The notes under the pieces were generated by a model. That model was given only the letters and a program-made list of their open reading frames with translations, ran no database searches and was not told the origin of the DNA. A stretch of 30,379 nucleotides of DNA from a virus. Below are positions 2,964 to 10,543 of this stretch, piece by piece. The stretch is taken from the IMG/VR virus record IMGVR_UViG_3300034407_001479, positions 1-30,379 of that record. One strand, 5' to 3'. The first letter of the stretch is position 1; each line of letters opens with the position of its first letter. The position numbers were made by a program, and so were the translations under genes.

Positions 2964-3284
2964 TTAAAGTTCATCTTGTTTTAATATATCAATAAAAAGT
3001 GGTAAGTCCAAGCAAACCATTGTTGTGCCATGGTCTTTGTGTAGGCACAGCAAGTCTGCTCCTGATTTCCATTTCTCTAATGTTTTAAATCCATCACCAT
3101 TTTTTCTAGCTTTAACTTCTACACTTAGTTTATGAAAACGTTCATCTTTTATTTCTATATCATAAGGAAAGTCTGCTATAGCTCCAGACATTGGCTGTCG
3201 CCGTGCTTTGATTCCTGCTTTATTAAACTCTTTTACTAGTTTATGTTCTACTCTATATCCTTTACTCTTACTAAATTTACCCAT
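2964..3284 (-). CDS. Hjc-like Holliday junction resolvase / PD-(D/E)XK nuclease
   Basis: 106 residues with the active-site order of the archaeal Hjc-type junction resolvase fold: SKGYRVEHKL with E13, RRQPMSG with S33, YDIEI with D42, and the VEVKARK signature with E56 and K58. Length matches single-domain resolvases. The expected role is cleavage of four-way junctions or branched DNA before packaging. A GAGG six bases before ATG 3284 sits inside the end of the upstream LexA-like gene, which overlaps by eight bases. The SSB, annealing protein and exonuclease upstream support a recombination role. Substrate preference cannot be told from sequence. Confidence 0.78.
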   Translation of the reverse strand: MGKFSKSKGYRVEHKLVKEFNKAGIKARRQPMSGAIADFPYDIEIKDERFHKLSVEVKARKNGDGFKTLEKWKSGADLLCLHKDHGTTMVCLDLPLFIDILKQDEL

Positions 3285-8822: not shown

Positions 8823-8894
8823 GGATATCGAGGACACTGAATAATACTCTATAATAAAAAAGGGAGTTACGAAACTGCAACTCCCTTTCGAGGA
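8801..8894. repeat. 60-base-spaced duplicated element
   Basis: AGGGAGTTACG occurs at 8801-8811 and again at 8861-8871. TCGAGGA occurs at 8828-8834 and 8888-8894. Both pairs have exactly 60-base spacing, suggesting an old tandem duplication. Each copy can fold: the first as GGGAGTT/AACgTCCC with a bulge (8802-8820), the second as the strong terminator hairpin at 8859-8888. Between the blocks the copies have diverged. Confidence 0.55.
8855..8888 (-). terminator. Rho-independent terminator (leftward)
   Basis: AAAGGGAGTT (8859-8868) pairs with AACTCCCTTT (8879-8888) around a 10-base loop. Read leftward, the stem is followed directly by a T run (8860 to 8855, TTTTTT). It begins nine bases after the stop of the 161-residue gene, so it should end or attenuate transcription from the divergence region before the rest of the leftward block. 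Confidence 0.8.
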
Positions 8895-8896
8895 TG

Positions 8897-9382
8897 TTAC
8901 TTCATTGAATCTCTGAATTGTTTGATTCTTAGAAGTACCTTATCAGAATCTTCAGAAGTCTTTTCATCAGATTTTGTTTGAGGTATGTAACTTTCATTTG
9001 TTACATCTTGAAATACTAATTTAGTAGCTTCAAATATTTCATTGTATCTAGTATGCCAAGCCATGTGATTTTCACATTGAGTAGTCAAATAATCATGTGG
9101 TTGACTTTTTTGTTTACGATCAGCAATCTTTTCTTCAGCTTGCTCCAATGCATACATATGAGAAGATTGGACTGCTTTAGGCAATCTTGTAAGTGCTCTC
9201 AAAATACGTTTGGTTTCACGTGCAATTTCTTGCTCGCCTGCTCCATCATAGTCAGATTTTTTAATGTCTGATAGATCATTAACAAATCCTTCAAATGATT
9301 TTTCTATCAACTCCATGCCTTGTTTAAATAGCTTTTCGTTGAATGTAGTATCGATTACTGTTTTAGTTTTTGCGTTTGTCAT
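8897..9382 (-). CDS. hypothetical early protein, first leftward gene (161 aa)
   Basis: 161 residues, helical and highly charged, with a very strong ribosome site (AAAAAAGGAG) about seven bases before ATG 9382. N-terminal helix TFNEKLFKQGMELIEKSFEG, then a basic middle (ETKRILRALTRLPKAVQ) and an acidic, Ser/Lys-rich C-terminal third. It is the first gene read leftward from the noncoding divergence region and is followed at once by an intrinsic terminator. Those features are typical of an abundant immediate-early product. No family recognised. Confidence 0.75.
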   Translation of the reverse strand: MTNAKTKTVIDTTFNEKLFKQGMELIEKSFEGFVNDLSDIKKSDYDGAGEQEIARETKRILRALTRLPKAVQSSHMYALEQAEEKIADRKQKSQPHDYLTTQCENHMAWHTRYNEIFEATKLVFQDVTNESYIPQTKSDEKTSEDSDKVLLRIKQFRDSMK

Positions 9383-9454
9383 ATGTTCTCCTTTTTTGTT
9401 AAATTAATGACGCCAGTTTTAGATCATGATGCAGAGAAGATGTATATGATTAGT

Positions 9455-9499
9455 GAGAAAAAAAATGCCTGAAATAAACGGATGTTTATTTTTTTTCTC
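9455..9499. repeat. AT-rich nested inverted repeat
   Basis: A 12-base perfect inverted repeat pairs 9455-9466 (GAG, eight A, T) with 9488-9499 (A, eight T, CTC). Inside and partly competing with it is AAATAAAC (9472-9479) / GTTTATTT (9484-9491) with a four-base loop GGAT. Read rightward, the inner hairpin is followed by TTTTTCTC, so it could terminate or pause rightward transcripts. Read leftward, it also ends in a T run. It lies about 75 bases upstream of the first leftward gene. A bidirectional terminator, operator or melting site are the options. Confidence 0.6.
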
Positions 9500-9500
9500 G

Positions 9501-9528
9501 TTGCCCAGAAACTTGTTTCTGATGGCAA
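9501..9528. repeat. 28-bp near-palindrome, operator-like
   Basis: CAGAAAC (9506-9512) and GTTTCTG (9515-9521) form a perfect dyad around TT. It is flanked by TTGCC (9501-9505) and GGCAA (9524-9528), which extend the symmetry with a two-base offset. Such compact dyads are typical of dimeric repressor or initiator binding sites. It lies immediately beside the AT-rich nested repeat. The phage encodes an HTH protein and a LexA-like winged helix, either of which could bind here. Confidence 0.5.
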
Positions 9529-9560
9529 CTCTAACTTGCTTTAGCATATACAACTTCGAA

Positions 9561-9583
9561 CATTATGATCTACTGGCATAATG
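9561..9583. repeat. inverted repeat with overlapping tandem octamer
   Basis: CATTATG (9561-9567) is the exact reverse complement of CATAATG (9577-9583), nine bases apart. The right arm overlaps a tandem near-repeat GGCATAAT (9575-9582) / GGCATTAA (9583-9590). Small repeats of this type occur in operators and iteron-like origins. No function can be assigned. Confidence 0.4.
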
Positions 9584-9709
9584 GCATTAATTTGACCTAA
9601 AAAGGAAGGACATATGACGAACCAAAACTGAACAGTAACTCGATACTACATTCAACTAAAAGCGTCCCCCCATCATAGGCACCCCATTGATAGAGTGTCT
9701 TGCAGGATA

Positions 9710-9731
9710 GGTGTTCCCTCTTTGGAACACC
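9710..9731 (+). repeat. perfect 8-bp hairpin
   Basis: GGTGTTCC (9710-9717) pairs with GGAACACC (9724-9731) around a six-base loop CTCTTT. It is followed one base later by the next stem-loop, so the two could stack in an RNA. No T run follows, so a terminator role is unlikely. Confidence 0.55.
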
Positions 9732-9732
9732 G

Positions 9733-9765
9733 TAAGGACGGTTCTTTGCTAGAGAAGAGTCCTTA
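9733..9765 (+). repeat. two-part stem-loop
   Basis: TAAGGAC (9733-9739) pairs with GTCCTTA (9759-9765). After a 2x2 internal loop, TTCTTT (9742-9747) pairs with AGAGAA (9751-9756), with one G-T pair and a three-base loop. The arrangement of stem, symmetric internal loop and tight terminal loop looks like a folded RNA more than a DNA operator. It ends at the candidate -35 box at 9765. Confidence 0.5.
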
Positions 9766-9794
9766 TGACATGTAGTCGGCGTAATATATATAAT
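9765..9794 (+). promoter_or_regulatory. candidate rightward sigma70 promoter
   Basis: ATGACA (9765-9770) and a perfect TATAAT (9789-9794) are separated by 18 bases. It is the best -10 match in the divergence region. The start point would be near 9801, at the base of the inner stem 9795-9845, so the transcript would begin with a hairpin. It would drive the small terminase gene and downstream cassette with a leader of about 220 bases. Confidence 0.5.
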
Positions 9795-9857
9795 GGATAG
9801 GAGATGTTCGTCAGGGGAATTCAGTCTGTATTCATCTCCGTATCCGTTCGCCGACTA
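9773..9857 (+). repeat. long nested inverted repeat (85 bp)
   Basis: Outer arms TAGTCGGCG (9773-9781) and CGCCGACTA (9849-9857) pair perfectly over nine bases. Inside, GGATA-GGAGATG (9795-9806) pairs with CATCTCC-g-TATCC (9833-9845), 12 pairs with one bulged G. The apical loop is 26 bases (9807-9832). The 5' internal loop (9782-9794) holds the TATAAT box; the 3' side has only GTT. Chance formation of two nested long stems is unlikely. It may act as RNA structure, terminase-binding or packaging site, or operator around the promoter. Confidence 0.65.
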
Positions 9858-9906
9858 TCCGTCTAATTAACTAATATAACGAGTCCATAAGTGGTCCGTA
9901 TGAAAT

Positions 9907-9930
9907 GATTCGGGGGTTCTTTCCCGAATC
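9907..9930 (+). repeat. perfect 8-bp GC-rich hairpin
   Basis: GATTCGGG (9907-9914) pairs with CCCGAATC (9923-9930) around an eight-base loop GGTTCTTT. It is followed after three bases by a second small hairpin (9934-9948). Read rightward, it would lie in the leader of the small terminase mRNA. Confidence 0.55.
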
Positions 9931-9933
9931 TAT

Positions 9934-9951
9934 ACCATCTGTGATGGTTTT
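9934..9951 (+). repeat. small hairpin followed by short T run
   Basis: ACCATC (9934-9939) pairs with GATGGT (9943-9948) around TGT, then TTT (9949-9951). Together with the stronger hairpin just upstream it could attenuate rightward transcripts, although the T run is short. It is followed by AGGAGG (9953-9958). Confidence 0.4.
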
Positions 9952-9964
9952 CAGGAGGATCCCG

Positions 9965-10006
9965 TTGGACACAAACTGGTATGTTGACATTTACGTCGGT
10001 GTCTGA
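9965..10006 (+). CDS. possible leader peptide upstream of the small terminase
   Basis: AGGAGG (9953-9958), among the best ribosome sites on the plus strand, stands six bases before a TTG that opens a 13-codon frame (MDTNWYVDIYVGV) ending at TGA 10004-10006. The same frame also has an ATG at 9944, which gives 20 residues but has no ribosome site of its own. The stop is 18 bases from the small terminase ATG, which itself has only a weak AGAAGAG. This could be a translated leader that couples to or regulates the terminase gene. Very short, so tentative. Confidence 0.3.
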   Translation: MDTNWYVDIYVGV

Positions 10007-10012
10007 TATTAG
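9984..10012 (+). promoter_or_regulatory. possible second rightward promoter
   Basis: A perfect TTGACA (9984-9989) is followed after 17 bases by TATTAG (10007-10012), a weak -10. The start would fall about five bases before ATG 10024, giving a nearly leaderless transcript, which argues against it being the main promoter. It overlaps the possible leader peptide. Confidence 0.25.
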
Positions 10013-10023
10013 AAGAGTTAGTT

Positions 10024-10398
10024 ATGCCAAACATTAAACCAAAGGGAATAACACCACAACAGAAGAAGTTAGTTGATACGCTCGTAGCCACAGGATGTAC
10101 AATCACCGATGCCTCGAAAGTCGCAGGATACAAGGGAAACAGCTCAAGAGTAAGTGCAAGTCGAGCGTTACGTTCCCCAGAGGTACAGCAATATATGTTT
10201 CAAGAGATACAGAAGTCTATTGGAATGTCCGCAGTCAAGGCACAGAGTAAGCTACTGGATCTAGCAAGTGGAGCCAAGTCAGAGTACGTACAGCTTGAGG
10301 CAAGCAAGGACATTCTAGACCGAGCAGGATTCAAAGCACCTGATAAACATCAGCATCTTGTTAAAGGCGACTTCCAGATTAATATAGACCTCAAGTAG
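10024..10398 (+). CDS. terS: terminase small subunit
   Basis: 124 residues resembling the Terminase_2 type small subunit, which recognises phage DNA and starts packaging. Visible pattern: ITPQQKKLVDTLVATGCTITDASKVAGYKGNSS (HTH, about 9-41), then SASRALRSPEVQQYMFQEI, then helices for oligomerisation and a short polar tail ending FQINIDLK. The gene is richer in G+C (about 45-50% in sampled lines) and uses more CAG and AAG codons than the late genes, like the noncoding DNA just upstream. The recognition site may be in or next to this gene. Ribosome site AGAAGAG is weak. Confidence 0.8.
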   Translation: MPNIKPKGITPQQKKLVDTLVATGCTITDASKVAGYKGNSSRVSASRALRSPEVQQYMFQEIQKSIGMSAVKAQSKLLDLASGAKSEYVQLEASKDILDRAGFKAPDKHQHLVKGDFQINIDLK

Positions 10399-10543
10399 CT
10401 CGGTCTGTGGTGTTATGTACTGGCTCACACAAACACATAGGGTACTTCGAAAAAACCACACATGACACACTATATATGTCCTGTCCTCACATTATAGGTT
10501 CAAAAAGCTCGACAAAAATTTTTTTTTCTGTTAAAGTTCGTTC

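Follow-up and report, generated by a model that had tools for sequence, protein, structure and literature searches.

What kind of element lies between the leftward gene and terS, the gene for the small terminase subunit, where positions 9383-10023 form a 641-base gap without a long reading frame? The window, namely the whole stretch of 30,379 nucleotides analyzed here (IMG/VR record IMGVR_UViG_3300034407_001479), belongs to a marine SAR11-type virus, and among isolates Pelagibacter phage EXVC031P Hodr is closest to it (TerS 76%, TerL 81%). The genes recognized in this phage encode TerS (PF03592), TerL, the portal and capsid proteins, a RecE-like exonuclease (RecE/YqaJ), SSB and a RusA-like resolvase. 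They are arranged in two divergent blocks, both of which start at the junction: the late block runs from 10024 to 30379 and from 1 to 1872, and the early block runs from 9382 to 1861. The same divergent two-block layout, with both blocks starting at the junction, was found in the genome of EXVC031P. No Pfam family was found for the protein of the leftward gene, and its relatives are uncharacterized viral proteins only. For the left-gene protein of one relative (L030:2035-2478, - strand) and its homologues, a pair of long helices was predicted (pLDDT 85). The terminator predicted behind the leftward gene implies that this gene forms a unit of its own. In the Hodr-like group, a promoter-like TTGACATTATAGAACAAACAAGTAATAAT is present past the left-gene terminator (about 3060-3150 on the - strand of L152, and in homologues), and thus the early block seems to begin there, with the left gene being separate and having no obvious promoter. 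On the other side of the junction, the 17-base spacing of the predicted terS promoter is retained in the relatives despite unrelated spacer sequences. Downstream of terS, there is a short noncoding gap (10472-10543) with a AAAAATTTTTTTTT run.

An earlier note on this DNA had pointed to at least eight inverted repeats in positions 9455-9951 and to a right part richer in G+C. We found nine repeats there (arms of at least 7 bases, loops of at most 90), compared with 2.2±1.5 and a maximum of 7 in 300 dinucleotide shuffles, and a G+C content of 0.40-0.45 at 9500-10000 against 0.34 for the window, in agreement with both statements. The repeat count alone is not unique, as counts of 8-9 were reached in a few more tiles of the window. 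What is unique to the region, relative to the rest of the window, is the length and the stability of the folding, with z-scores against shuffles of -9.0 for 9383-9640 and of -5.3 (+ strand) and -4.5 (- strand) for 9640-10023. As for the borders of the region, the high density of repeats stood, but the extent did not: the object had been cut, as its left arm begins at 9331 inside the leftward gene and its right end is the terS promoter (Table 1). Altogether, the earlier observation is real, and it was understated.

Table 1. Features in and around the junction between the leftward gene and terS, in window coordinates.
Feature	Position	Strand	Basis
Terminator predicted for the leftward gene: GGGAGTTGCAGTTTCGTAACTCCC followed by a T run on the - strand	8856..8885	-	Sequence
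Leftward gene, 161 aa, its start mirrored in the right arm	8897..9382	-	
Left arm: reaches ~52 bases into the leftward gene and includes its start codon and ribosome site	9331..9448	+	Pairing alignment
Apical loop with nested hairpins 9455-9466/9488-9499 (inside: 9472-9479/9484-9491) and 9500-9505/9524-9529	9449..9544	+	
Right arm: inverted copy, with broken frame, of the region where the leftward gene starts (ribosome site and first codons; AAAAGGAAGG...ATGACGAACCAAAACTGA)	9545..9663	+	Pairing alignment
Hairpin cassettes GGTGTTCC-CTCTTT-GGAACACC (9710-9731) and TAAGGAC...GTCCTTA (9733-9765)	9664..9772	+	blastn: common to L001
Long hairpin TAGTCGGCG (9773-9781)/CGCCGACTA (9849-9857), inner stem around 9794-9847	9773..9880	+	Absent from L001
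Three-way-junction module: outer stem GTCCA/TGGAC (9883-9887/9966-9970) and two inner hairpins	9881..9972	+	Covariance model R1
Predicted terS/late promoter TTGACA-17-TATTAG	9984..10012	+	Sequence; consensus scan
terS, small terminase subunit	10024..10398	+	Pfam PF03592, 38 bits; PHROG terminase small subunit

Positions 9331-9663 make up one quasi-palindrome with 111 aligned positions. Its score of 61.5, against 14.7±2.1 for shuffles, was obtained with our own pairing-alignment program (match +1, mismatch -1, affine gaps, with G·T and A·C scored equally), and it is the sole long quasi-palindrome of the window (next tiles, 23.5; median, 14.5). The helices of the arms are mostly perfect and are interrupted by one-sided bulges. 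In the window, the mirror pairing is that of ATGACAAACGCAAAAACTAAAACAGTAATCGAT with ATGACGAACCAAAACTGAACAGTAACTCGAT, and the mirrored ATG (9614-9616) opens a reading frame of 5 codons. A right arm that mirrors the ribosome site and the first codons of the left gene, with frame-breaking indels, was found in about 20 phages. This rule is independent of the identity of the left gene, being found in L105, L048, L152, L032, L148 and others, the left genes of which have diverged beyond BLAST detection. The start regions of left genes are more paired than control starts (0.67 vs 0.53, p=1e-7), and the value for the window is 0.85. We rejected the sequestration of the terS start as a family-wide rule, because the corresponding value, 0.56 vs 0.53 for control starts, was not significant. 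The reading phases of the paired codons are mixed, and therefore an in-frame duplicated gene does not explain the pairing; an inverted gene duplication as the sole cause was rejected.

The quasi-palindrome is followed by a row of hairpin cassettes (9664-9972) that reaches the terS promoter. Whole hairpins have been gained, lost or replaced between close relatives. Since the stretch corresponding to 9773-9977 is swapped for different hairpins in the close relative L001, and cassettes are present in some relatives and missing in others, conservation does not extend to the shape of the fold. The three-way junction at the right end of the row recurs in L048, L013/L087 and L024/L090. A covariance model (R1) was built from junction copies, and the four training sequences fit it by construction. 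The window scored 79.7 bits with this model, and the copy in L006, which the model had not seen and which is free of the training-set caveat, scored 57 bits with an E-value of 3.5e-10. Among the model-found copies, 13 of the 23 pairs were changed on both sides and 90.6% of the cells were paired, compared with 31-50% in slid controls and with 0/500 shuffles. Copies at a second site (L006:891-981, L240:123-186 and L244, those of L240 and L244 found by DNA pattern) lie on the 3' (far) side of the left gene and on the same strand. The inner hairpins of these second-site copies are different but compensated, and the module looks mobile. The alignment fold of the L003 group comprised 103 pairs, 19 of which were changed on both sides, and placed the terS ribosome site in the closing helix. 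The compensatory changes on which the earlier note had made a structural reading depend are thus present in both the three-way junction and the L003 group. We also observed pyrimidine-rich hairpin loops on the terS-sense strand, both in the window (9718-9723, 9741-9748 and 9915-9922) and in L003, L006 and L048; TCTTT loops numbered 6 on the + strand and 0 on the - strand.

Searches with TerS and TerL yielded more than 150 loci. In 61 non-redundant intergenic regions, the mean folding z-score was -6.5 on the + strand and -5.9 on the - strand. A giant quasi-palindrome with z>6, where z is a rough value from 12 shuffles per locus, was found in 43 of the 61 loci, all of marine podoviruses and including the isolate EXVC031P, and extended up to ~1.2 kb. 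The remaining 18 loci fell below this threshold, and several of them fold as multi-branched structures. Among the same 61 loci, the pairing enters the left coding sequence in 24 and terS in 6. The extremes are L129, with 470 aligned positions over 1180 bases and a minimum free energy of -612 kcal/mol on the + strand vs -461 on the - strand, and EXVC031P, with 449 aligned positions over 1087 bases. In the complete genome of EXVC031P the palindrome is unique (137 vs a tile median of 18). Pairing on the scale of a whole genome was rejected, as it reaches no farther than about 1.2-1.5 kb. Further carriers with TerL of at least 60-65% identity are L198 (score 162.5), L224, L197, L214 and L230, and the palindrome was absent from the TerL relatives more distant than about 60-65% identity. 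The loci that share it differ in G+C content, from 0.34 to 0.49. A blastn search of the region against phage records gave no match, as its sequence is not conserved. Likewise, the pair maps within the Hodr-like group agree only partly between relatives, and for this reason we rejected the idea of one fixed fold. We conclude that the fold-back on the terS-sense (+) strand is kept in this phage clade as pairing and not as sequence.

The pairing leaves a mark on the coding sequences. Synonymous-codon shuffles of the left gene abolished it, with observed scores of 98 vs 27.7±7.8 in L152 and 148.5 vs 49.0±8.2 in L129, and synonymous shuffles of terS similarly abolished the pairing between the terS and left coding sequences (46.5 vs 16.4±3.0). 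The mismatches in the arms are unevenly distributed as well: G·T was counted 97 times vs 19 for A·C, and, by locus, 35 had more G·T and 9 more A·C (p=1e-4). The mismatches of the Hodr-like group show no clear excess of G·T; in the loci outside this group, A·C falls short of expectation (6% vs 15%) and G·T surpasses it (27% vs 18%). The same tendency was seen between the window and L001, which are 92% identical over 9383-9772: a pair survived a one-sided change in five cases, each time by way of G·T and never of A·C, while two pairs carry a double compensation and five have been lost. The preference for G·T over A·C points to the terS-sense strand as the molecule that pairs. A mutation bias around a bidirectional origin would be expected to be opposite on the two arms and to cancel. 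The suggestion of the earlier note that a structured nucleic acid is under selection here is borne out by the structural covariation, the strand-specific wobble bias and the tuning of synonymous sites.

From these sequence comparisons, we tentatively propose that the element acts as RNA, serving as an antisense-cancelling mimic and an insulator at the early/late junction. Rightward transcripts heading for terS, arising from read-through or from an unmapped upstream start, would first pass over the left-gene start and would carry a stretch antisense to the left gene's ribosome site. Being part of the same RNA, the mirror copy would capture this stretch in cis and so spare the left mRNA from being silenced when transcription runs rightward; the late (terS) unit would be insulated by the hairpin cassettes that follow the mirror copy. 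A TATAAAG-like + strand motif was rejected as it had no strand excess (6 vs 5). Several findings count against the proposal: a consensus scan of the loci gave no consistent + strand promoter to the left of the palindrome; the tolerance of G·T fits a fold in single-stranded DNA as well as one in RNA; in the Hodr-like group, a clear G·T excess is missing and the pair maps turn over between relatives; terS starts are no more buried than control starts; and 18 of the 61 loci fell below z>6. It is more doubtful still, though conceivable, that the element represents a new class of cis element, a self-mimic fold-back in which an inverted, untranslatable copy of a gene start makes transcripts of the opposite direction fold on themselves instead of pairing with the left mRNA, with silent positions of two protein genes tuned accordingly.

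The same + strand fold may instead form in single-stranded DNA, at an opened replication origin or on a displaced strand, and function in initiation or strand switching. We regard this as possible but improbable, and hold with the same reserve that the turnover of hairpins would then reflect the absence of a sequence-specific reader. The junction is the sole divergent point of the two-block genome, in EXVC031P as well, the minimum of the cumulative G+C skew lies nearby (about 6-8 kb), the phage carries recombination genes (RecE/YqaJ, SSB and the RusA-like resolvase), and G·T is compatible with DNA hairpins. However, the skew is confounded by gene direction, neither iterons nor an initiator gene were recognized, and we know of no origin that needs a 1.2-kb fold entering two coding genes. 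Recognition of the locus by TerS as a packaging start (pac) is a considerably weaker candidate. A pac site overlapping terS is seen in many headful phages, and the element adjoins or sometimes enters terS; its occurrence follows the terminase clade, and distant TerL relatives lack it. Its position is nevertheless the sole pointer. No conserved DNA motif was found, and base pairing is, to our knowledge, not a requirement for pac recognition. The possibility raised in the earlier note of a packaging RNA comparable in role to the phi29 pRNA is highly improbable. A structured + strand element does adjoin terS, but the phi29 pRNA always takes the same fold and partners with a packaging motor, and here the phage possesses ordinary TerS and TerL and the overall shape is not conserved among relatives, which leaves such an RNA unsupported.

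Two further alternatives concern the mirror copy itself. Leftward transcripts that begin right of the palindrome might conceal the left gene's start, and translatable mRNA would then come solely from a promoter within the hairpin. The burial of left-gene starts agrees with this, and there is a precedent in the short leader hairpins of T4 gene e, soc and I-TevI, which act on the sense mRNA (PMC3014915, PMC2988022) and, as here, bury a start region at a junction of differently timed transcripts. We nonetheless consider such sequestration unlikely. It predicts wobble on the other strand, and the observed bias is on the + strand, the antisense strand of the gene with the buried start, unlike in the T4 systems; for most loci, the consensus scan found no - strand promoter inside the palindrome or to its right, and a strong one inside it was not found consistently; and the pairing deep into coding sequence, with arms of up to about 500 bases that run into coding genes, would be unnecessary and differs from the T4 hairpins. 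Less plausible than sequestration is a functionless product of quasi-palindrome mutation, in which the left-gene start is copied in inverted form again and again through template switching at a site of fork stalling. Near-exact inverted copies in L105 and L048 and the turnover of pair maps among relatives are in line with this process. It does not easily produce the bias of G·T over A·C, and the synonymous tuning of terS and the left gene in mixed reading phases as well as the covarying cassettes are hard to explain by it.

Comparison with known systems gave no complete counterpart of the element proposed above to act as RNA. Rfam searches with the window and the region returned no match at gathering score or with a meaningful E-value, and nothing relevant was found in the open-access literature on pelagiphage palindromes and terminase-linked structured RNA. 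Thus, we found no described system that explains the fold-back element. The PeSL of T4-type phages are mobile promoter/stem-loop cassettes, and the hairpins studied here resemble them in lying near promoters and in being gained and lost between relatives. In contrast to PeSL, the three-way junction covaries, sits inside a larger fold-back element, and also occurs without an adjoining terS promoter (L006, L240 and L244). The cabRNA of staphylococcal phages, which lies within terS-terL and was found as a trigger of CBASS, is a structured phage RNA from the terminase region with sequences differing between phages (PMC10686824); it is not known to include a giant palindrome or a mirror copy of a neighbouring gene.

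This group of ocean phages retains a long inverted repeat at the only divergent junction of the genome, across a range of G+C contents, and bends protein-coding sequence in doing so. Inverted repeats of such length tend to be unstable and are usually eliminated from genomes. If the element acts as RNA, it would rank with the longest self-paired regulatory RNAs in DNA phages and offer a new means of running divergent, overlapping transcription; if it acts as DNA, it would mark an unusual origin or packaging site. With the isolate EXVC031P, which grows on HTCC1062, the question is directly testable. In the deposited record of this isolate (OQ414635), the title reads EXVC031P Hodr and the locus tags read EXVC032PBaldr, so the depositors may have swapped the two names or used them jointly.
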